Origin: Candidatus Aegiribacteria sp.
Lineage (GTDB): Bacteria; Fermentibacterota; Fermentibacteria; Fermentibacterales; JCC-6
Length of the DNA: 39,878 bases
NCBI GenBank assembly: GCA_023138735.1
Contig: JAGLOY010000063.1
Location: 1-39,878, forward strand
Direction of reading: 5' to 3'
The position numbers and the translations under genes are program-made. Positions within the stretch are counted from its first letter, which is position 1; every line of letters begins with the position of its first letter. Below are positions 23,057 through 37,857 of the stretch, one piece after another. The notes under the pieces were generated by a model. The model was not told the origin of the DNA. It saw only the letters and a program-made list of their open reading frames with translations, and did no database searches.

Positions 23057-23245
23057 CAGACAACTCATCTAGGCACGAGAACCACATCAATGCTTACAGT
23101 GAGTGTATCTGAGATCACCCTGTGTATAGACGACAGGATCAGATACTTAACGCATGCTGATGCCAGGTCTCAGTTGAATTCCATTGAACGATCCATAAGA
23201 TTTAACTGTAATTTAAGTTAGAGTATTACAGTCAACATCATCACC

Positions 23246-23306
23246 ACTCATAGATAACCGCGGAGCCTTTTCGTTTTCTAAGTTGAGACAGGAATATGCC
23301 GGAGAT
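23246..23306 (-). pseudogene. 3' fragment of an EamA transporter gene, copy 1
   Basis: Read on the - strand, this encodes the last about 20 residues of the EamA protein whose gene ends at 31475 (GIFLSQL.KRKGSAVIYE, then a stop), with few changes. It lies directly downstream of the first RRM gene's terminator. The same fragment follows the second RRM gene at 30734-30780, so it marks the end of the duplicated segment. Confidence 0.75.
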
Positions 23307-23309
23307 AAA

Positions 23310-23340
23310 GGAGAAGGGGAGGTACGAAGACCTCCCCATA
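23310..23340 (-). terminator. Rho-independent terminator of RRM gene 1
   Basis: On the - strand GGGGAGGT (23337-23330) pairs perfectly with ACCTCCCC (23323-23316) around a CTTCGT loop, followed by TTCTCCTTT. The same element follows the second RRM gene (30790-30811). Confidence 0.85.
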
Positions 23341-23368
23341 TATCACTTAGCTAGAATAATTCTAGTTA

Positions 23369-23623
23369 CTATCTTGGCTTGTCGTTGGCAAAATCCACTT
23401 TGAGCTGACGGCCGTCCATTTCCTGTCCGTTCATCGCCTCCATGGCTGCCTTTGCTTCTTCATCGGTTCCGAAGGTCACAAAACCGAACCCTCTTGACCT
23501 TCCTGAGTCTCTTTCGGTGATGACTTTTGCCTCTTCAATTGTACCATACTCCTCGAAAGCCTTGCTCAGACTATTATCATCCGTTGCCCAGGCTAATCCT
23601 CCAACAAACAGCTTCTTACCCAT
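23369..23623 (-). CDS. RRM RNA-binding protein, copy 1
   Basis: 84 residues forming a single RNA recognition motif: RNP2 LFVGGL at 5-10 and RNP1 RGFGFVTF at about 44-51, with the aromatic residues for RNA stacking present. ATG 23623 follows AGGAGTTAGA. The C-terminus lacks the glycine-rich tail of cyanobacterial Rbp proteins. Such proteins bind single-stranded RNA and often act under cold or other stress. A paralogue lies at 30840-31097; the two agree except in residues about 52-68 and the last few. The gene has a long structured leader and its own terminator, so it is monocistronic. Confidence 0.95.
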   Translation of the reverse strand: MGKKLFVGGLAWATDDNSLSKAFEEYGTIEEAKVITERDSGRSRGFGFVTFGTDEEAKAAMEAMNGQEMDGRQLKVDFANDKPR

Positions 23624-23800
23624 TCTAACTCCTGTTCCCCGGGACTTCCGTCCCTAAGTACCTGCGGCATCAATGCCGCTGTTGCCCCTAAAGCAGGGGC
23701 GTGCCAACCGGGATACGGCCCGGAACCGTGCTGTAACACTACAGCAATCTGATGTGAAACAAGCTCTTTTCACTTGTGCGATGATAGTTTTGGAATTAAC
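23624..23800 (-). promoter_or_regulatory. Structured 5' leader of RRM gene 1
   Basis: In the - strand transcript, hairpins can be drawn at GTGAAA/TTTCAC, CTGTAGTGTTACAG, CCGGGCCGTATCCCGG, CCCCTGCTTTAGGGG, CGGCATTGATGCCG and GGGACGGAAGTCCC, the last just before AGGAGTTAGAATG. The same leader stands before the second RRM gene (31098-31274) with a single base difference seen. The last hairpin could hide or expose the ribosome-binding site. No match to a named riboswitch; probably autoregulatory or temperature-sensing (inference). Confidence 0.75.
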
Positions 23801-23963
23801 GAGGAAGATGAGCGAGAGACTAAGTAAATCCTTCTAAACACTGCAACCAATAAAAATATCTATCTTTCACATTACAACAGTAATATACAATTAAGTTTCT
23901 AATATGCAATTCCTTAAAAAGTTTCATCCTAATAACTGTTGCCTAAGCAATGAAGGCTACGGA

Positions 23964-23992
23964 TTGACATCACATATGAGTAGTATATACTA
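23964..23992 (+). promoter_or_regulatory. Promoter with palindromic operator for XRE gene
   Basis: TTGACA (23964-23969), a 16-nt spacer and TATACT (23986-23991) make a strong sigma70-type promoter. The perfect 12-bp palindrome TAGTATATACTA (23981-23992) covers the -10 box, and the related half-site ACTAC repeats just downstream. An HTH protein bound here would block transcription, so negative autoregulation by the following gene is likely. Confidence 0.65.
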
Positions 23993-24013
23993 CACACTAC
24001 ACGGAGGTATTGA

Positions 24014-24370
24014 ATGGCAAACGAATTTGGCGAGTATGTAAGAGATAAGAGGGAGAGACTTCGGAAGACAGATCCTGCTTTCTCTATCCGCAGGTTAGCT
24101 GATCGGATCAACCTGGAGCCATCATACTTGAGTAAAATAGAGAGAGGGCTGGAGGCTCCACCTTCTTGCAAGAAGATCGTGCTGCTGGCCGAAGAGCTGG
24201 GTGAGGATTCTGATGTCATGCTGGCTCTGGCCGGCAAAGTTTCCGCTGACCTGCTAGAGGTCATTCGCAGAAGGCCGGCACTCTTCGGGATCATATTAAG
24301 AGAACTCAGGGATTTGTCTGATTATGCTATTCTTAGACTGGTCAGTGAAGCCCGGGATGGGAAATGGTAA
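24014..24370 (+). CDS. XRE-family HTH transcriptional regulator
   Basis: 118 residues; ATG behind ACGGAGG. The N-terminal Cro/CI-type helix-turn-helix spans about residues 8-68 (FGEYVRDKRERLRKTDPAFSIRRLADRI, recognition part PSYLSKIERGLEAPPS). The C-terminal half (LLEVIRRRPALFGIILRELRDLSDYAILRLVSEARDG) is helical and common in small regulators of this family. The overlapping palindrome upstream suggests self-repression. A lipoprotein gene follows after 54 nt on the same strand and could be under its control. Confidence 0.92.
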   Translation: MANEFGEYVRDKRERLRKTDPAFSIRRLADRINLEPSYLSKIERGLEAPPSCKKIVLLAEELGEDSDVMLALAGKVSADLLEVIRRRPALFGIILRELRDLSDYAILRLVSEARDGKW

Positions 24371-24424
24371 GAAAAATAGTATGACTGTAGTTGTGGTTCA
24401 CAGGATTGGCAATGGAGGGTCTGA

Positions 24425-25609
24425 ATGAAATCAGTAATGATCAGCTTAGGAATCATCGCTTTGTCTACCGGCTGCAGCGTCATGGGAAGCTCGGGGGAGG
24501 AAGGCAGCCAGGGAAGCGGAGAATGGGAGCATCCGGATTACGACAGTACCCTGATCGTGAGTAACATATCCGAGCTGCTAGATGCGGTGGAGTACGCCAA
24601 CGCCAATAGGAATGTGGAGATACTGCTGGAGGATGGCACGTATCAGCTGGATGGGATGCTATGGATAGATGGGTACAATGTGGGTTTCCGGGGTTATTCA
24701 GGTGACTACGTTGCAGTGGTCATCAGGGGAGAGGGCATGACCGGTGGTGTTTCTCACGTCTTCAATGTTCCCGGTGACTATTTTGCTGTGCAGGACATGA
24801 CAATCGGTTGGATAAGCAATCACGCAGTGCAGATACATGGCAACTCGGATGCGGATTATCCCTATTTCAACAACGTGAGGTTTGTGGATACCGGAGAACA
24901 GATGCTTAAGATATCCACGGATTTCAGCAGCAATTACTCGGATAACGGTATTGTGGAGAATTGCCGGTTCGAGTACAGTGCGGGAATCGGTCCCCAGTAT
25001 TACATTGGCGGCGTGGACGGCCATCAGTGCCGTAACTGGACTATTCGAGACTGCTACTTCTACGGGATTCGCAGCCCGGGAAGCGATCTCGCCGAACACG
25101 CGATTCACTTCTGGTCCGAGTCGGAGGGAACAGTTGTGGAGCGCAACCGGATCTCTGAGTGTGACAGGGGCATAGGGTTTGGTATGGGTGACAGCGGTCA
25201 CGGTGATGGTATCATCCGCAACAACTTCGTCCATACTACCCGGGATGTGGGTATAGGACTTGAGAACGCTTCGGGAGTGGATGTATACAACAACTCCCTA
25301 TATACCGAGAATTATGTGAACTCGATAGAATACCGCTTTTCTGGAACCTCCGGTGGGGAGATAATCAACAACCTCGCCAATGGCGCCATTGTATCCAGGG
25401 ACGGCGGGTCCGCCACTCTGGCAAGTAACGTGACCTCTGCTGAGTCCTCGTGGTTCATGGATGCTGATTCGGGAGATCTGCATCTTACATCATCTGCATC
25501 AGGTGTGGTGGATGCGGGGCAGACTCTAAGCGACGTTACTCTCGATTACGATTCCGAAGCAAGGCCTTCAGGCTCTGCTTTTGATATCGGGGGGGATGAG
25601 GTGTACTGA
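24425..25609 (+). CDS. Right-handed beta-helix lipoprotein
   Basis: 394 residues; ATG 24425 behind GGAGGGTCTGA. A short signal peptide ends in the lipobox LSTGC (Cys17), followed by a Ser/Gly/Glu linker. The body is a parallel beta-helix of the pectate-lyase kind: NVEILLEDGTYQL, FRGYSGDYVAVVIRGEG, YFAVQDMTIGWISNHAVQIHG, RFVDTGEQML, VENCRFEYS, TIRDCYFYGI, VVERNRISECDRGIGFGMG, IIRNNFVHTTRDVGIGLENA, VDVYNNSLYTEN. This fold occurs in polysaccharide lyases and surface adhesins; no catalytic site can be assigned here. A hairpin terminator follows at once. Confidence 0.88.
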   Translation: MKSVMISLGIIALSTGCSVMGSSGEEGSQGSGEWEHPDYDSTLIVSNISELLDAVEYANANRNVEILLEDGTYQLDGMLWIDGYNVGFRGYSGDYVAVVIRGEGMTGGVSHVFNVPGDYFAVQDMTIGWISNHAVQIHGNSDADYPYFNNVRFVDTGEQMLKISTDFSSNYSDNGIVENCRFEYSAGIGPQYYIGGVDGHQCRNWTIRDCYFYGIRSPGSDLAEHAIHFWSESEGTVVERNRISECDRGIGFGMGDSGHGDGIIRNNFVHTTRDVGIGLENASGVDVYNNSLYTENYVNSIEYRFSGTSGGEIINNLANGAIVSRDGGSATLASNVTSAESSWFMDADSGDLHLTSSASGVVDAGQTLSDVTLDYDSEARPSGSAFDIGGDEVY

Positions 25610-25610
25610 C

Positions 25611-25665
25611 TGGGCTGCTTTGGAAGCAGAGAACTGGATGATGGAATATCCAGTTTTCTATTGCT
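25611..25665 (+). terminator. Double-hairpin terminator, also a 55-bp repeat (copy A)
   Basis: CTGCTTTGGAAGCAG is followed by GAACTGGAT ... ATCCAGTTTTC, two hairpins immediately after the beta-helix gene stop; the second ends in TTTT. The same 55 bp with two differences stand at 27309-27363, before the antiporter gene. The gap from here to 25855 shows no other feature. Confidence 0.6.
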
Positions 25666-25855
25666 AAGAGACTCCAGAGGTGATTTTTCGGAATCAAGAT
25701 AGGTAGAAGATGAAATACCGGTAAGGGTGAATGAGCCTTGCACCGTAAGGACTGAAAGAAGAAAGATCATTGGAACCTTAATGGAATTGTATCAGGCGTT
25801 GGGATGAAACAATATACCCGTCTTCCATGAACTGGTCATCACTGCAGATCACCTG

Positions 25856-25896
25856 ATAAAAAAAGCCGCAGGTGGAAAAATGTTCCACCCGCGGCT
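25856..25896 (-). terminator. Strong rho-independent terminator
   Basis: On the - strand GCCGCGGGTGGAA pairs with TTCCACCTGCGGC (25895-25865; one internal mismatch), followed by TTTTTTT. It ends the transcript of the secreted-protein gene 25919-26584. Confidence 0.9.
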
Positions 25897-25918
25897 GATA
25901 AGAATTTGTCCGGCAGGA

Positions 25919-26584
25919 CTATTCTGAATAACCGACTTTGATTGAGCCCCAGGTTCTGCGCTCGAGGGCTGTTCCGTACCAGTAATAAACAGTGCCGTTC
26001 CATGAACGAAACACGAAAGTGCTGGCAGGAGGAAAACCCTGTGGAAGGCCACAGTAGGTGACGATATCAATGAAAGCATCGGAATAGGTGTTTGGTCCAC
26101 CGTTGGTGTACATGAATCCGCCAATACCTGAAACTGCTTCCTGGGCAGTGATTATGAATCCTACAGTTTCTCCAGCCTCAATAGTTATTGCATCGGTATC
26201 ATTGATATCAACATGCGATGGCACATCAACACCTGATGCTGTAATAACCTGTGAGGAAAGAAGGTTCCATCCGGCAGCACTGGTCTCGTATCCATAAGCT
26301 GTGCCTTCACGGTAGTAAATATCAATTGTGAATTCTGAAAGATCTGCATTATCGAGATTGATATCAAAGCCGTCAAGTATGATCTGCTGAGTGCCGACGA
26401 TGTCGAAGGAGTTTCCTGCGTAGTTGTTGTCGGATGCGAACTGAGTTGTGAGCCCGGCATCACCGGTCCCGTCAACGAGAGGTGCACATCCTGAGGATGG
26501 GGAACCCTCAGCACCACTGTCGGTAACAGCAAACGCTGAAAAGGAAACAACAAACGCAAGAGCAAAAACAAGAATTATTCTCAT
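25919..26584 (-). CDS. Secreted beta-rich protein, unknown
   Basis: 221 residues; ATG behind AAGGAAGG. A clear signal peptide (ILVFALAFVVSFSAFA) is followed by a beta-sandwich-like domain: FASDNNYAGNSFDIVGTQQI, LDGFDINLDNADLSEFTIDIYYREG, AITIEAGETVGFIITAQ. Similar all-beta domains occur in exported proteins of Planctomycetes and Verrucomicrobia; function unknown. The C-terminus ends in a short basic tail, without an obvious sorting signal. It has its own terminator, so it is a single-gene unit. Confidence 0.8.
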   Translation of the reverse strand: MRIILVFALAFVVSFSAFAVTDSGAEGSPSSGCAPLVDGTGDAGLTTQFASDNNYAGNSFDIVGTQQIILDGFDINLDNADLSEFTIDIYYREGTAYGYETSAAGWNLLSSQVITASGVDVPSHVDINDTDAITIEAGETVGFIITAQEAVSGIGGFMYTNGGPNTYSDAFIDIVTYCGLPQGFPPASTFVFRSWNGTVYYWYGTALERRTWGSIKVGYSE

Positions 26585-26950
26585 GACAACCTTCCTTATT
26601 TAAATGAATACCATAGTCCAAACCAATACTATCAGCAAAAAAACCTAAACTTAGTATAAATATCGGGATTCTTTTGTCAATGGGATGCAACTGGTTTCAA
26701 AAAGAACTTCTTAAGATGAACTGTGATTCTATGGTTTAAGCAGGAAAATAGATTGCGAAAATTCCAGGGACATCGATCGCTGTTTACCAGCACAGCAGAA
26801 AGAGACATGCCATCTGTAAAAACACTGTATCTGCTTCGATTGACTGCCAGCCTTTTACAGTTATGCAATCTATTTCCAGTTCATTAATCAGGAGTTGCGC
26901 GTTGACAAGGGGACATTCATTCAGAACTGCAGCATAGCGTTCATAGTTGT
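26585..26950. other. Gap, no secure gene
   Basis: Apart from the promoter region of the preceding - strand gene nothing is secure. A 69-codon - strand frame begins with GTG at 26993 (SEPSLNGYSTTLPDNYERYAA...) and reads like protein but has no ribosome-binding site and overlaps the transposase relic; it may be the tail of a lost gene. Confidence 0.4.
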
Positions 26951-26954
26951 CTGG

Positions 26955-27178
26955 CAGAGTTGTGCTGTACCCGTTCAATGAAGGTTCGGACACAGTGCTT
27001 TACCGGGGGGAGAACAATTTCACCCTGCCCTTGCAAGGAACTTCGACGTTGCAGACCCACTGGACTGGATCGCGAGAATAACATCACCATACCACGCAAG
27101 GGAGCGAAACAGGTCATATACTATGGAGCGTACTGCCAGGCGTGGATGGATCGTGAGCGCCGCCAGGGGATTTCATGA
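26955..27178 (+). pseudogene. IS91-family transposase relic
   Basis: Pieces in different + strand frames join into the C-terminal part of an IS91-type (Y2) transposase: SDTVLYRGE, then HPALARNFDVADPLDWIARIT, then IPRKGAKQVIYYGAY with a stop at 27176-27178. In intact relatives the same order is VxYR...FDPLDFIAxxxxHIP...xRYYGxYS. At least two frameshifts separate the pieces and the catalytic tyrosines upstream are absent, so this is a dead fragment. It shows past mobile-element activity between the duplicated RRM copies. Confidence 0.65.
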
Positions 27179-27308
27179 GTATTTGTCTCAGTAATGATCT
27201 TTGACCACTGATCTTTCAGGCGGTATGGTTGGTTTCCGGGATCACCCGGGAACCACAAGCTTCCGGCATATGGGTTTCAATCAGGAATCTATGGGCAATC
27301 GGGACGAA

Positions 27309-27363
27309 TGGGCTGCTTTGGAAGCAGAGAACTGGATGGTGGAATATCCAGTTTCCTATTGCT
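27309..27363 (+). repeat. 55-bp double-hairpin repeat (copy B)
   Basis: Copy of 25611-25665 with two substitutions, in the same orientation. It lies 16 nt before the antiporter start, in a strange place for a terminator. A further hairpin, GGTTTCCGGG/CCCGGGAACC, lies just upstream near 27231-27254. Together they suggest the remnant 3' end of a gene that has been lost, or a leader attenuator. Confidence 0.65.
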
Positions 27364-27378
27364 TATTCAGGAGTTTAG

Positions 27379-28611
27379 ATGCTTTCAGATCTCTATGCGG
27401 CACTACTTAATATGCGAGAAGTTTTCAGCCAGCATATAGTCTTCGGTTTAGGAATTCTTCTTACTGGAAGCTACTTCATGGGTAGGCTGGCTGAGAGGAT
27501 TAAACTACCGGCAATAACTGGTTTCATTCTGGCAGGATTGTTACTTGGTCCCTCATGCATGGGTCTTGTTCATGAACATCTTGATGAAGCCCTTGCTCCG
27601 ATAACTGAGATCGCAATCGCTCTTATCGCCCTGGTGATAGGCAGTGAGATCAGCCGTAAGATGTTCAGGATCATCGGAAAATCAATTGTAATAATTACCA
27701 TATTCCAGATCTTCGGTGCATTCACGCTTGTCACAACCGGTCTGGTTATTGCAGGAATGAGGCTGGAATTCGCTGCAATTCTTGGCGCTATCGCATCGGC
27801 ATCGGCACCTGCAGCAACTGTAGCAATTATCAGAGAATTGAAAGCGAAGGGACCGTTTGTTAACCACCTCTACGGAGAGGTGGCTCTTGGTGACGCGGGA
27901 AGTATTGTGCTCTTTGCTTCTGTCGTTGCCATTGCAGGGAATTTTCTCGGTTCGAACGTATCTCTTCTCCGCACTATCTCTCACTCAATTTTCGGAATAC
28001 TTGCTTCGCTTCTGCTGGGAGCCATTTCAGGATGGATACTTCATCTGCTTACCAGAAAAAGAAGGCGCATAAATGAAGTAATGATAATATCCCTCAGCCT
28101 TATTCTTCTTATTTCAGCGATTTCACATACTCTGAATTTGAGCTCTCTTCTTGCATGCATGACTGCAGGCGCTGTAATGTCTAACCTCTCACGGAACAAA
28201 CACAATATCCTTAGCTCTCTCGATTCGATATCACCTCCACTTTACGCTGCACTCTTCGCAATTGCCGGTACTGAACTGAGTATAGCTGTCCTGACCTCAC
28301 CAAATATTCTGCTCATGGGTGGAATTTTCGTTCTGGCCAGGGCTGCAGGAAAGATAACAGGAGTACATATTGGAGCATCAGCAGCTCATTCGGACCCTCT
28401 GATCAAGAAGTATCTAGGATACGGAATGCTACCACAGGCTGGAGTAGCTATAGGTCTTGTCCTGTTTCTTGATACGATGCCCTATTTTACAATTAATCAT
28501 GAAATAACCACCACTCTGATAAACATTGTACTATTCTCCGTATTTGTTAATGAGCTTGCTGGACCACCGCTCTCGAAATATGCGATTAGCAGAGGTTCTA
28601 TTCTGGAATGA
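27379..28611 (+). CDS. Kef/CPA2-type cation:proton antiporter
   Basis: 410 residues; ATG 27379 behind TCAGGAG. The protein is almost entirely membrane segments (about 12) with the Na+/H+ exchanger family pattern: GRLAERIKLPAITGFILAGLLLGP at 31-54, ASASAPAATVAIIRELKAKG (the conserved discontinuous-helix region), LYGEVALGDAGSIVLFA, FAIAGTELSIAVL and GYGMLPQAGVAIGLV. It lacks the C-terminal TrkA/RCK domain of KefB/C, as in many short CPA2 members. It exchanges K+ or Na+ for H+ across the inner membrane. A bidirectional terminator follows at 28690-28715. Confidence 0.92.
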   Translation: MLSDLYAALLNMREVFSQHIVFGLGILLTGSYFMGRLAERIKLPAITGFILAGLLLGPSCMGLVHEHLDEALAPITEIAIALIALVIGSEISRKMFRIIGKSIVIITIFQIFGAFTLVTTGLVIAGMRLEFAAILGAIASASAPAATVAIIRELKAKGPFVNHLYGEVALGDAGSIVLFASVVAIAGNFLGSNVSLLRTISHSIFGILASLLLGAISGWILHLLTRKRRRINEVMIISLSLILLISAISHTLNLSSLLACMTAGAVMSNLSRNKHNILSSLDSISPPLYAALFAIAGTELSIAVLTSPNILLMGGIFVLARAAGKITGVHIGASAAHSDPLIKKYLGYGMLPQAGVAIGLVLFLDTMPYFTINHEITTTLINIVLFSVFVNELAGPPLSKYAISRGSILE

Positions 28612-28689
28612 TTTAGGATATTTCCTGATACATTTCGCAGGAATCATGCAGTATTAAAGAACTCACTAACCTGTATGATGAATAGAGAA

Positions 28690-28715
28690 ACCGGGGTGTG
28701 CAGTGACACCCCGGT
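28690..28715. terminator. Bidirectional terminator between convergent genes
   Basis: ACCGGGGTGT (28690-28699) and ACACCCCGGT (28706-28715) form a perfect 10-bp stem with a 6-nt loop. The - strand continues with TTTCTC, fitting termination of the symporter operon; the + strand tail is weaker. Confidence 0.85.
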
Positions 28716-28743
28716 AATTCAATGGCCGTTGATGTGATTCTCG

Positions 28744-30204
28744 CTAGCCGTTGTCGCGTTCGTGCACCTTTTCCGGCATGTGCACTTTATGCATGAACTC
28801 CATCGTATCGTGCGGCGTCTTTCCGTCGATCTTGGAAACCGCCCAGATGGTGATGAAGGCCGCCGGAACGGTGATGATAGACGGGTTCATCAGCGATTGC
28901 AGCTTAAGCAGGCTGGTGACAATCATGACAGCAGAACCCACCATACCAACAATCATTCCAGCTAGTGCGCCCTTCTCCGTTGTGCCCTTCCACCAGACGC
29001 CCATCATCAGGACCGGGAAGAACGTGCTGGCAGCAATCGCGAACGCTAGACCAACCAGGAACGCAACGTTGTAGCCACGGAACACGAGACCGGTCAGGAT
29101 CGCAATGATGCCGACACCAATGGATGTCAACTTCGCGACAAGAACCTGCCGCTTGTCCGAAGCGCCTGGCACGAGCATCGTGAACAGATCGTGGGCAATG
29201 GCGCCAGTCGAAGCAATCACCAATCCTGCCACTGTGGACAGAATGGCTGCAAACGCACCTGCGATAACCACGCCCATCATCCACTCGCCTCCGACGTACT
29301 GTGCGAGCATTGGGAGTACAAGGTTCGTCGTTGGCGGAGAATTACCCAACAAGGAACGAGCAGCCAGTCCAACGACCGGAGTCATCATGTAGAACGTACC
29401 GATGATGAACAACGTCCACACAGCCGTCCAACGGGCCGAGCGCCCGGACGGGTTTGTATAGAATCGGATCAGGATGTGCGGCAATCCTGCTGTGCCCAGC
29501 ACTAATCCGAAAATCAACGCGAAGCTGTTCTTGAAGTCGAGCCACCTTCCAGGAACGGTGTACTCTTTCACTGTGCTCAGCAGGTTGCTGTAGTTGAAGT
29601 TGAACTTGCCCAGCGCGAGCGTCATGACGACGAACATCGCCGTCCAGAGCAGGATGCACTGAATGATCTGGTTATATGTGGTCGCTCGCATGCCGCCGAG
29701 TACGACATAGACGGTAATCAGCGTTCCCGCAATCGCTACAGCGAAGACATACTCCCACCCCAGCAGCAATCCCAGCAACTCTCCTGCGCCGACCATCTGC
29801 GGAACGATGTAGAACAGAGATACCAACAAGGTTCCAATCATGGCTGTGATGCGCAGCGGGCGGGAATGGAAACGGCCTGCAACGAAATCAGCAATCGTGT
29901 ATGCGCCGAATCGTCGAATCGGACTCGCCAGGAAGAGCAACAGCACGAGCCATCCACCAAAGAACCCGGCCGCATACCAGATGCCGTCATACCCGTATGC
30001 CCAAACGAGACCCGCGACGCCCAGGAACGAAGCCGCACTCATGTAGTCACCAGAAAGCGCAAGCGCATTCTGAATCGCGCTGATGCCCCGACCGGCAACA
30101 TAAAACTCAGCCGTGCTCTTCGTGTATTTGCGAGAAAGGAAGGCAACGATGATACTAATCGCAACGATTACACCAACCAGTGCAGTCGCAATTGGCTGTT
30201 GCAT
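28744..30204 (-). CDS. actP: ActP-like sodium:acetate/solute symporter
   Basis: 486 residues with about 13 membrane segments and the SSS-family features FYVAGRGISAIQNALALSGDYMSAASFLG, a GYDGIWYAAGFFGGW segment, GGMRATTYNQIIQ and SPPTTNLVLPMLAQ. ActP takes up acetate and other short monocarboxylates with Na+ or H+. It starts 1 nt after the stop of the DUF485 gene, the standard yjcH-actP arrangement. The gene is visibly richer in G+C than its neighbours (34 of 60 bases at 28801-28860, against 27 of 60 at 27901-27960 in the antiporter gene), pointing to recent acquisition. Substrate within the family is uncertain. Confidence 0.9.
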   Translation of the reverse strand: MQQPIATALVGVIVAISIIVAFLSRKYTKSTAEFYVAGRGISAIQNALALSGDYMSAASFLGVAGLVWAYGYDGIWYAAGFFGGWLVLLLFLASPIRRFGAYTIADFVAGRFHSRPLRITAMIGTLLVSLFYIVPQMVGAGELLGLLLGWEYVFAVAIAGTLITVYVVLGGMRATTYNQIIQCILLWTAMFVVMTLALGKFNFNYSNLLSTVKEYTVPGRWLDFKNSFALIFGLVLGTAGLPHILIRFYTNPSGRSARWTAVWTLFIIGTFYMMTPVVGLAARSLLGNSPPTTNLVLPMLAQYVGGEWMMGVVIAGAFAAILSTVAGLVIASTGAIAHDLFTMLVPGASDKRQVLVAKLTSIGVGIIAILTGLVFRGYNVAFLVGLAFAIAASTFFPVLMMGVWWKGTTEKGALAGMIVGMVGSAVMIVTSLLKLQSLMNPSIITVPAAFITIWAVSKIDGKTPHDTMEFMHKVHMPEKVHERDNG

Positions 30205-30205
30205 G

Positions 30206-30466
30206 CTAGTGTGCCTCCTCTTCTTTGTCCGTTCTCAAGACGTAGTACACCGTGATGACCCAAGCCACAATGTAGATGAAGAGCACCGAGTACACGTAGG
30301 TCACCGATAGGTTTCCGAACATGCTCCGCAGCATGAACCCTCCGGTAAAATGGTTCAGGACTGGGAGGATCAACGTCACGAAGAGGAAGCAGATACCTAA
30401 CCATATGCTCTTACGGAACTCCCTTGAGACGTATTCCTCCGTCGCTTTATCCTTGCTGCTATTCAT
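30206..30466 (-). CDS. yjcH: DUF485 membrane protein, partner of the symporter
   Basis: 86 residues, two membrane segments (about 20-42 and 58-80), highly charged ends (NSSKDKATEEYVSREFRKS, RTDKEEEAH). ATG behind AGGTGAGGT-like sequence. DUF485/YjcH proteins are encoded directly before actP and form a membrane subunit or helper of the symporter; this arrangement is kept here with no gap. Like actP it belongs to the G+C-richer block. The region upstream (30467-30733) holds no gene and should contain the operon promoter. Confidence 0.85.
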   Translation of the reverse strand: MNSSKDKATEEYVSREFRKSIWLGICFLFVTLILPVLNHFTGGFMLRSMFGNLSVTYVYSVLFIYIVAWVITVYYVLRTDKEEEAH

Positions 30467-30733
30467 ACCTCACCTTTCACCGACCTTGCGTCCCTGTACG
30501 GGGTGAAATCCCCAAACCATACGGGTACTGCCGATATGAGTATGTCCTTAGTGTTTACTTCTTACCGATAGGAAACTGGATTTCGCTCCCTCCGCGATTG
30601 GCTTTCGGACTTAGCCACGTAGTGCGTTTCCGCCTCCAGATCTAGCACCGAATCGTAACATATCCCGATTCCCGGAGTCGGTCAATGGAACTCCCGAACG
30701 AACAATTAAGAAGACCTTATGGAAGAGTGGTGT

Positions 30734-30780
30734 GCGGAGCCTTTTCGTTTCCTAAGTTGAGACAGGAATATGCCGGAGAT
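30734..30780 (-). pseudogene. 3' fragment of an EamA transporter gene, copy 2
   Basis: Encodes ISGIFLSQLRKRKGSA on the - strand, nearly the last residues of the protein from 31475-32385, cut off before the stop. It directly follows the terminator of RRM gene 2. Confidence 0.75.
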
Positions 30781-30785
30781 AAAGG

Positions 30786-30814
30786 AGAAGGGGAGGTACG
30801 AAGACCTCCCCTTA
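30786..30814 (-). terminator. Rho-independent terminator of RRM gene 2
   Basis: Same perfect 8-bp GGGGAGGT/ACCTCCCC stem as at 23310-23340, followed on the - strand by TTCTCCTTT. Confidence 0.85.
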
Positions 30815-30839
30815 TATCACTCAAAAAGAATAGCGCTAG

Positions 30840-31097
30840 TTAGGATCTTTGCTTGTCGTTGGCAAAATCCACTCTGAGCTGACGGCCGTCCATTTCCTGT
30901 CCGTCCATTGCCTTCTGAGCTGCAACTGCGTTTTCCTCAGTATCAAAGGTCACAAAACCGAATCCTCTTGATCTTCCAGAGTCTCTTTCGGTGATGACTT
31001 TCGCCTCTTCAATAGTACCATACTCCTCGAAAGCCTTGCTCAGACTATTATCATCCGTTGCCCAGGCTAATCCTCCAACAAACAGCTTCTTACCCAT
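30840..31097 (-). CDS. RRM RNA-binding protein, copy 2
   Basis: 85 residues with the same RNP2 (LFVGGL) and RNP1 (RGFGFVTF) as copy 1. Residues 1-51 are identical; about 52-68 differ strongly (DTEENAVAAQKAMDG here, GTDEEAKAAMEAMNG there), and the tail is KQRS rather than KPR. The changed part is helix 2 of the fold, which does not contact RNA in most RRMs but can bind partners. Own leader and terminator; monocistronic. Confidence 0.95.
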   Translation of the reverse strand: MGKKLFVGGLAWATDDNSLSKAFEEYGTIEEAKVITERDSGRSRGFGFVTFDTEENAVAAQKAMDGQEMDGRQLRVDFANDKQRS

Positions 31098-31274
31098 TCG
31101 AACTCCTGTTCCCCGGGACTTCCGTCCCTAAGTACCTGCGGCATCAATGCCGCTGTTGCCCCTAAAGCAGGGGCGTGCCAACCGGGATACGGCCCGGAAC
31201 CGTGCTGTAACACTACAGCAATCTGATGTGAAACAAGCTCTTTTCACTTGTGCGATGATAGTTTTGGAATTAAC
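31098..31274 (-). promoter_or_regulatory. Structured 5' leader of RRM gene 2
   Basis: Identical to the leader of RRM gene 1 from the start codon to the TTAACGAG box apart from one base next to the ribosome-binding site (31106 region: TTCGAACT against TTCTAACT on the + strand). All six hairpins are kept. Confidence 0.75.
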
Positions 31275-31474
31275 GAGAGAGATGATTCTGAAACTACGTA
31301 AATCCTTCTAAACACTGCAACCAATTAAAAATATCTATCTTTCACATTACAACAGTAATATACAATTAAGTTTCTAATATGCAATTCCTTAGAAAGTCCG
31401 GAATTGCAAAGCCGATGCTAACCGGTGAATAACCATAAATACATTCTGGATAAATGACACCTTGTGCGGAATAG

Positions 31475-32385
31475 TCACGACTCATAGATAACCGCGGAGC
31501 CTTTTCGTTTCTTGAGCTGAGACAGGAATATGCCGGAGATGATGATGGCCATTCCGATGATCTTTCTTTCCGTGAAACTGTCCCCAAGAATGAAATAGGC
31601 GGCTATGGCAGTAATGACGGGTATGATGTTCGTGAAGATAGTCGTTCTGCTTATGCCCAGCTCTCTTATGGCTACGGTGATGAAGATGAACGCCAGAGAT
31701 GAGCCTAAGAGGGCAAGCAAGAACAGGTCGATAATAACGATGGGGGGTGGATTCGCCGCAAGAGTTTGCTTCCATTCAAAACCGAGCATGAGAGGGAGGA
31801 AATAGATCCCTCCGAGCATGTTCTGAACCCTGACTATTGTCAGTGGGCGGTAGCGGTTTGTGAGGTTTTTCACAACGATGCTGTATCCTACTGCAGACAC
31901 AACGGCGAACAGCAGGAAGAGTATTCCCTTGGTTGATGCTTCGAGATGAGCACCTCTTGTTGTAGTGAAGATGAAAAGCCCAAGAAGGATATTATCAGGC
32001 CGAAGATGTTCAATACGGATAGCTTTTCCCTGTAGAAGAAATATGCGAAGAAGGGTGCGATCACTGGAATGAGCCCTATCATTATGGATGCCAGAGTGGA
32101 GGTGACCAGCAGCAGGCCGAAGCTCTCTCCTATGAAGTAACAGAAGGGCTGCAGGAATGCCAGGAGGAGGAATATGGGCCAGTCTTTCCTGGCAACTGTT
32201 TCATTCTTTCTGGTTATCTTTGCGTAAAGAGTGAGAATGATAGCGGAGATGATGAGCCTGAACAGAAGAGTGGTAAACGGACCGTAGTACTCGAATACTA
32301 TCTTCGTCCAGACGAAAGCGATACCCCAGAAGAGCATTGCTCCCAGCGTTCCCAGGTATACTCCGAGCCTCTTGTAGTTACCCAT
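31475..32385 (-). pseudogene. EamA/DMT-family transporter with frameshift
   Basis: Two overlapping frames make one drug/metabolite transporter of about 302 residues: the first (start ATG 32385, GNYKRLGVYLGTLGAMLFWG...) runs through FGLIISFLGF, and the second continues with LFIFTTTRGAHLEASTKGILFLLFAVVSAVGYS to ...GSAVIYES. One base is missing or extra near 31972-31985, next to a GGGCTTTTC run. Ten membrane segments in two EamA repeats are expected and present. The rest of the gene is intact, so the mutation is recent or a sequence error. Confidence 0.8.
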
Positions 32386-33901: not shown

Positions 33902-34027
33902 CCAAAATGAATGTCCGAATTCAGATTAGCGCTTCATGTTGCTGATATATCATGAAAATTTGCTCTTTCGTATGTGGCAGTTCCATCCTTAAGACAAGAT
34001 TGCCGCAGGTAGATATTTCATGGTTAC
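33898..34027 (-). repeat. Inverted repeat joining two stop codons (attC-like candidate)
   Basis: GTAACCA (33898-33904) and TGGTTAC (34021-34027) are perfectly complementary; each contains the TAA stop of one of the convergent genes (kinase, cupin). The inside includes the palindrome TGATATATCA. The whole region is repeated next to the second cupin gene, though there the left arm has one change (GTTACCA, 37357-37363). It may serve as a terminator region or a recombination site. Confidence 0.3.
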
Positions 34028-34398
34028 TTACATTTTCTTGTATATCGATGTGGCTCATTGAAAAACGTCATATCTGCATATCCAGCGTATATCCTGGCTG
34101 AATGCTTTACTCCTTCAGGAATATAATATCGATCTCCTTTGGTAAATAAGTTCTTTTCACCATCAATTACCAACTCGATCTTTCCCTCCAGTACTATTCC
34201 CATTTGGGCTGCATGAAAGTGTTCTGGTAGAACAGCATCTTTTTCAAATTCCATAAACACTATCTGATGAGTGTCTGATTGTGAAAGATATGCAGTTATT
34301 CCATCCAGAGGGATATCAGCTTCTGGAAGATCTCTAATCGGTTCTGGAAATATTTGATTCATGAATATTATTCCTTAATCTTATGTTGTGCATTCTTT
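33908..34398 (-). repeat. Duplicated cupin unit, copy 1 (491 bp)
   Basis: Matches 37367-37857 over its full length with scattered substitutions and no net length change: 3' region, cupin gene, and upstream sequence to CATTCTTT. Copy 1 additionally has a VOC gene between this CATTCTTT and another one at 34710-34717. Confidence 0.9.
34024..34362 (-). CDS. Single-domain cupin protein, copy 1
   Basis: 112 residues, a small beta-barrel with the cupin metal motif: PEHFH (H48, H50), Gln53 in place of the usual Glu, and H87 in GVKHSAR; G-D-R-YYIPEG forms the second motif. Cupins of this size bind sugars or small ligands or act as enzymes; specificity cannot be told. ATG 34362 follows AGGAAT, a weak site. 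It lies downstream of the VOC gene in the same orientation, likely one operon. The copy at 37483-37821 differs at 6 of 112 residues. Confidence 0.88.
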   Translation of the reverse strand: MNQIFPEPIRDLPEADIPLDGITAYLSQSDTHQIVFMEFEKDAVLPEHFHAAQMGIVLEGKIELVIDGEKNLFTKGDRYYIPEGVKHSARIYAGYADMTFFNEPHRYTRKCK

Positions 34399-37366: not shown

Positions 37367-37857
37367 TGAATGTCCGAATTCTGATTAGTGCTTCATGTTG
37401 CTGATATATCATGAAAATTTGCTCTTTTTTATGTGGCAGTTCCATCCTTAAGACAAGATTGCCGCAGGTAGATATTTCATGGTTACTTACATTTTATTGT
37501 ATATCGATGTGGCTCATTGAAAAACGTCATATCTGCATATCCAGCGTATATCCTGGCTGAATGCTTTACTCCTTCAGGAATAAAATATCGATCTCCTTTG
37601 GTAAAAAAGTTCTTTTCACCATCAATTACCAACTCGATCTTTCCCTCCAGTACAATTCCCATTTGGGCTGCATGAAAGTGTTCCGGTAGAACAGCATCTT
37701 TTTCAAATTTCATAAACACAATCTGATGAGTGTCTGATTGTGAAAGATATGCAGTTATTCCATCCAGAGGGATATCAGCTTCCGGAAGAATTCTAATCGG
37801 TTCTGGAAATATTTGATCCATGAATATTCCTCCTTAGTCTTGTGTTGTGCATTCTTT
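37367..37857 (-). repeat. Duplicated cupin unit, copy 2 (491 bp)
   Basis: Counterpart of 33908-34398. Here CATTCTTT (37850-37857) is followed directly by CCTTTTATGCACAACGC, which in copy 1 stands beyond the VOC gene (CCTTTATGCATAACGC), as if the VOC gene had been deleted between the two CATTCTTT repeats. Confidence 0.9.
37483..37821 (-). CDS. Single-domain cupin protein, copy 2
   Basis: 112 residues with the same metal ligands as copy 1 (H48, H50, Gln53, H87). The six differences (residues 2, 11, 38, 72, 79 and 109) leave the binding site unchanged. ATG 37821 is behind GGAGGAAT, a better ribosome-binding site than in copy 1 (AGGAAT), so expression may be higher although the VOC gene is lost here. 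Ligand unknown. Confidence 0.88.
   Translation of the reverse strand: MDQIFPEPIRILPEADIPLDGITAYLSQSDTHQIVFMKFEKDAVLPEHFHAAQMGIVLEGKIELVIDGEKNFFTKGDRYFIPEGVKHSARIYAGYADMTFFNEPHRYTIKCK

Follow-up and report, generated by a model that had tools for sequence, protein, structure and literature searches.

Two described systems are precedents for the locus analyzed here. The Chlorobi-RRM motif has been listed as probably cis-regulatory (Weinberg et al., 2010, PMC2864571), and in Bacteroides the protein RbpB binds the rbpB mRNA, as reported in the portion of PMC11697453 cited here. RNA recognition by bacterial RRM proteins, and the control of their own levels, are little known. We analyzed a window (the whole stretch of DNA under study, 39,878 nucleotides of contig JAGLOY010000063.1 from Candidatus Aegiribacteria sp., assembly GCA_023138735.1) in which two RRM genes are each preceded by a structured leader. 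At the level of sequence comparison, the structure of this leader and its specificity for RRM genes are established, and the leader is probably a real control element.

Twin RRM genes share a nearly identical leader

The original prediction, that two RRM genes within 23260–31397 keep a near-identical leader, was confirmed: on the minus strand, a single base out of 177, A versus C at position –3, distinguishes the twin leaders (23624–23800 and 31098–31274). Genes A and B are single-domain genes on the minus strand of the same window (Table 1), and their products score 78–79 bits against RRM_1, for which the curated cut-off is 20.7, and carry the RNP1/RNP2 motifs (LFVGGL, RGFGFVTF). A third RRM gene of this genome lies on another contig and has a leader of a different type, D; relatives with the same RRM gene are named Candidatus Aegiribacteria, a genus of the FCB group. 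Strong divergence of residues 52–68 had also been claimed, and this stood in part. Seven of the nine amino-acid changes between A and B do cluster within residues 52–65, but in an AlphaFold model of RRM B (mean pLDDT 84.8), where helix α2 comprises residues 54–64, they map to this helix and its flanks. The RNP strands (model residues 4–8 and 43–51) have the same sequence in A and B, and thus the RNA-binding strands of the RRM proteins have not diverged.

Table 1. Coordinates of the features of the twin RRM loci, as positions in the window.
Feature	Coordinates	Strand	Basis or remark
RRM gene A	23369–23623	–	84 aa; Pfam RRM_1 (PF00076), 78.9 bits
RRM gene B	30840–31097	–	85 aa; Pfam RRM_1 (PF00076), 78.3 bits
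Leader/5′ UTR of A	23624–23875	–	putative 5′ end, from conserved –10 element 23882–23887; alignment of orthologues
Leader/5′ UTR of B	31098–31350	–	putative 5′ end, from conserved –10 element 31358–31363; alignment of orthologues
Hairpin P0	A 23759–23777; B 31233–31251	–	fold; seen in A-type leaders only
Hairpin P1	A 23729–23746; B 31203–31220	–	three pairs with two-sided changes
Hairpin P2	A 23708–23723; B 31182–31197	–	near-invariant core; possible CGG/CCG pseudoknot
Hairpin P3	A 23684–23700; B 31158–31174	–	fold and covariation alignments
Hairpin P4	A 23664–23679; B 31138–31153	–	tandemly doubled in two homologous leaders
Terminal hairpin P5	A 23641–23654; B 31115–31128	–	hairpin near the same start-codon distance in 41/47 RRM genes
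Ribosome-binding site AGGAG	A 23629–23633; B 31103–31107	–	sequence; conserved in all homologous leaders
Terminator hairpin behind gene A	23316–23337	–	terminator scan
Terminator hairpin behind gene B	30790–30811	–	by sequence, copy of that behind A
EamA gene 3′-end copy behind RRM A	23241–23306	–	sequence repeat
EamA 3′-end copy behind RRM B	30734–30780		sequence repeat
Source of EamA 3′-end copies	31475–31540

The repeated unit (23260–23922 and 30734–31397) is about 663 bp long and 93% identical. Codons 1–27 of A and B show no difference, six silent differences fall in codons 28–51, and third positions changed in 0 of the first 27 codons against 13 of 56 further on (p = 0.004). Since silent divergence between A and B (7/33) is similar to that between species, the duplication is not very young. 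In the alignment of orthologues each twin is a mosaic when compared with genomes G013 and G011, and this mosaicism relative to G013, together with the unchanged third positions of the first 27 codons, makes it likely that local gene conversion between the twins contributed. The 3′-end sequence of an EamA gene occurs in three copies in the window and nowhere else in the genome, and the copies behind both RRM genes resemble a trace left by tandem duplication; a related genome, G001, has three RRM genes of this type, one of them adjoining EamA. A frameshift from frame 0 to frame 2 splits the EamA-family transporter gene of the window (31475–32385, minus strand) and reflects either a pseudogene or an assembly error; the spacing of the two halves in G001 is that of a single frame. 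A second duplicate pair in the window consists of nearly identical 112-aa genes (34024–34362 and 37483–37821, minus strand) that are cupin-like by eye.

The leader is under selection across species

The mosaic copies, the identical stretch that runs on into codons 1–27 and the EamA 3′ ends behind both genes are what a functionless leader would also display, if its identity reflected recent duplication or gene conversion. We consider this explanation highly improbable, as it is already contradicted by comparison between species: the leader is kept where fourfold sites have diverged by 18–39%, and compensatory changes keep the hairpins in more distant genes. Compared to copy B, the leader differs at 2/177 positions in G013 (fourfold sites 6/33, p = 2e-4), 3/176 in G011 (9/34, p = 4e-6) and 21/175 in G016 (12/31, p = 7e-4). 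The leader therefore changes far less than fourfold sites and is kept by selection. Recent copying, to be judged from silent differences, had been named as what would refute a function of the leader; copying alone is insufficient, given that the leader lies below fourfold divergence in all three genomes. Relative to G016, the hairpin array differs at 13/124 positions, the promoter at 17/42 and the 5′ part of the 5′ UTR at 24/74. The proposal that the untranslated RNA is more conserved than the protein holds for the twin pair only; between copy B and G016, the divergence of the leader (12.0%; array 10.5%) is close to that of the coding DNA (12.6%).

Hairpin architecture and covariation

A –10-like element, TATATT, is conserved upstream of both copies, and from this conservation the 5′ UTR is probably about 250 nt long, starting near the positions in Table 1, with the 177-nt leader as its 3′ part. 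Predicted hairpins P0–P5 are short, G+C-rich and arranged in tandem, the last ending 15–17 nt upstream of the start codon. Folding z-scores were about –2.0 to –3.6 for the twins and four other A/B-type arrays, and –4.8 for the D-type leader of the same genome. P2 and its flanks are near-invariant in sequence across homologous leaders, and the P2 core has no other copy in its own genome with up to three mismatches allowed. The pairs of P2 and of its possible pseudoknot hardly vary in an alignment of 20 leaders, so that covariation is uninformative there and the pseudoknot is a candidate. Some folds contain a GAAC-AGGA-GTTC hairpin with the ribosome-binding site in its loop; its sequence is conserved, no compensatory change was seen in it, and the sole difference between the twin leaders falls inside it.

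Across this alignment of 20 homologues, pairing holds in 94.5% of cells and five pairs carry changes on both sides; the covariation score was reached by 0 of 500 shuffles, controls that take the leader sequences as independent and leave relatedness unaccounted for. When the partners were slid along this alignment, pairing fell to 29–48%. In D-type leaders, aligned separately, 98.9% of cells pair, and two-sided changes occur at four pairs. Such changes were found at 26 of 29 pairs in an alignment of 34 model matches, which is structure-fitted and includes weak matches and so is biased towards structure. Most of the genomes compared are metagenome assemblies. Covariation among related RRM leaders, the check proposed with the original prediction, was thus found in two separate alignments. 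Conservation beyond silent sites, these compensatory changes and a location at RRM genes only together uphold the view of a functional cis-regulatory RNA that comprises some six hairpins, of which the final one adjoins the ribosome-binding site. Binding by the RRM proteins themselves, also raised with the original prediction, is plausible.

At 41 of the 47 RRM genes of the order, a hairpin lies with the end of its 3′ arm 11–19 nt upstream of the start codon. Dinucleotide shuffles give an expectation of 4.3 of 47, and such a hairpin was seen at 26 of 199 other genes, whose start codons were mechanically chosen. The terminal stems differ (GGGAC/GTCCC, GAGGGT/ACCCTC, GGGGC/GCCCC and TCCCGGA/TCCGGGA), and their distance is mostly 14–17 nt. 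RRM leaders of the order are also better folded, with a mean z of –2.65 against –0.50 for other upstream regions (p = 5e-10). Bacterial RRM genes as a whole do not share these features: in other phyla, 73 RRM genes had a mean z of –0.61 against –0.25 for controls (p = 0.05), and 8 of these 73 had the terminal hairpin, against 4.8 expected.

RRM genes elsewhere have conserved upstream motifs of their own, namely GTGGTGTAGCGGA in Dojkabacteria, CCTCTTTAGCGGC...AGCCTTAAGGAGG in Bdellovibrio and others, and GATGGGATTCCCAC in SAR202-type Chloroflexi (loci L099, L105, L109–L116; L118–L120, L127; L073–L102). In another genus of the same family, RRM genes of the MNLYVGNLSW type (L055–L057) share a conserved leader of another kind, in which TCATCGCGAAGA-TCGGTT and GAAAGGGATAC precede the start.

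The leader is found at RRM genes only

A covariance model of the leader was run on 42, then 27 genomes. In the 27 genomes of the lineage it gave 24 confident matches (at least 19.7 bits), and the next matches scored 17.2 bits and lower. All 24 lay directly upstream of RRM genes, a position shared with Chlorobi-RRM, and the leader is confined to the genes of one protein family, as would be expected of an autoregulatory leader. Twenty of the strongest matches are the model-building set, so the independent support is that other sites were not found and that held-out leaders were; ten leaders outside the set were recovered in register.

No Rfam family reached its gathering threshold in the window. 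The best cis-regulatory match was sul1, which covers P2 and P3 at 17.3 bits against a cut-off of 36.2 (E = 0.7). Chlorobi-RRM (RF01697, cut-off 45 bits) had no match in the genome itself and only two in the 42 genomes, at 19.4 and 17.9 bits, neither of them at a known RRM leader. A riboswitch-like leader that recognizes a small molecule or some other factor acting in trans, with P2 as the sensing core, would account for the near-invariance of P2 and its flanks and for the possible pseudoknot, and the sub-threshold sul1 match over P2 and P3 points the same way. However, that match is of chance size, no Rfam family is at threshold, and the RNA is found at RRM genes and at no metabolic gene; we regard this reading as improbable.

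Masking of the ribosome-binding site, attenuation and temperature

We considered and discarded the idea that a distant anti-site masks the ribosome-binding site: over 47 genes, its pairing with the upstream region did not exceed that of shuffles (mean z –0.08) or of controls. In individual folds the pairing probability of the site ranged from 0.13 to 1.0, with differing partners. The suggestion that the leader senses temperature, as a thermometer masking the ribosome-binding site, is accordingly not supported, as the pairing is not conserved and stands at shuffle level in the 47-gene test. As for transcription attenuation, the terminator scan detected none within the leader and only the hairpin behind gene A. 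In D-type leaders (L001, L040–L045, L185–L188), a 13-bp long-range helix between ACTCATTTCTGAG and CTCAGAAAT-G-GAGT is possible at about –175 to –6; it would cover the ribosome-binding site and compete with the terminal hairpin, and is not general over the 47 genes.

The leader may also control RRM expression without the RRM protein, through mRNA stability, as a ribosome standby site or enhancer, or in a cold response, which we consider possible but rather doubtful. Such roles are consistent with the stable G+C-rich hairpins, which sit close to the 5′ end and next to the ribosome-binding site, and Rbp1, a small cyanobacterial RRM protein, is reported to be required for cold adaptability (PMC9333190). 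Against them, the near-invariant sequence of P2 exceeds what stability requires, and over the 47 genes no conserved partner masks the ribosome-binding site.

Proposed autogenous control and comparison with known systems

With our confidence about evenly divided, we read the leader as a cis-regulatory RNA that would place the RRM genes of Candidatus Aegiribacteria and its relatives under autogenous translational control; what binds the leader, and whether binding raises or lowers expression, we infer. Abundant RRM protein would bind the hairpin array, with P2 and the terminal hairpin as the likeliest candidate sites, and the bound protein would hinder 30S loading at the adjacent ribosome-binding site, thereby limiting its own synthesis. 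Autogenous translational control fits a leader that is found only at RRM genes and has neither a terminator nor a conserved masking partner. Because leader and RNA-binding strands are common to the twins, A and B would be controlled together. Against autogenous control, the hairpins could not be matched to any known RRM binding motif, a gene-specific stability or translation element would also account for specificity for one gene family, and the P2 core invites other ligands.

More tentatively, and a little short of even confidence, we propose an undescribed family of leader RNAs in which tandem hairpins, some of them doubled as units, would form a multi-site operator for RRM proteins and exert feedback on a paralogous RRM set across a whole candidate lineage. 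With its P2 core and its terminal hairpin, a conserved leader specific to RRM genes supplies concrete candidates for binding sites, and it would join Chlorobi-RRM as a new RNA family.

RbpB of Bacteroides thetaiotaomicron is likewise a bacterial RRM-1 protein; its own mRNA carries a binding site, and autoregulation was suggested (PMC11697453). The finding came from CLIP-seq, and according to that paper RbpB prefers AU-rich sequence, whereas the leader here is G+C-rich, and in the portion of that report cited here no conserved hairpin leader is described for rbpB. Chlorobi-RRM is, like the leader here, a predicted cis-regulatory RNA at RRM genes in an FCB-group phylum; the present leader is longer, strings together five to six hairpins in tandem, and gives no usable RF01697 score. 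The autoregulatory leaders of ribosomal-protein genes often resemble the rRNA site of the protein, and we know of no such resemblance for this leader. Ribosomal-protein leaders too are structured, belong to one gene family and lie beside the ribosome-binding site.
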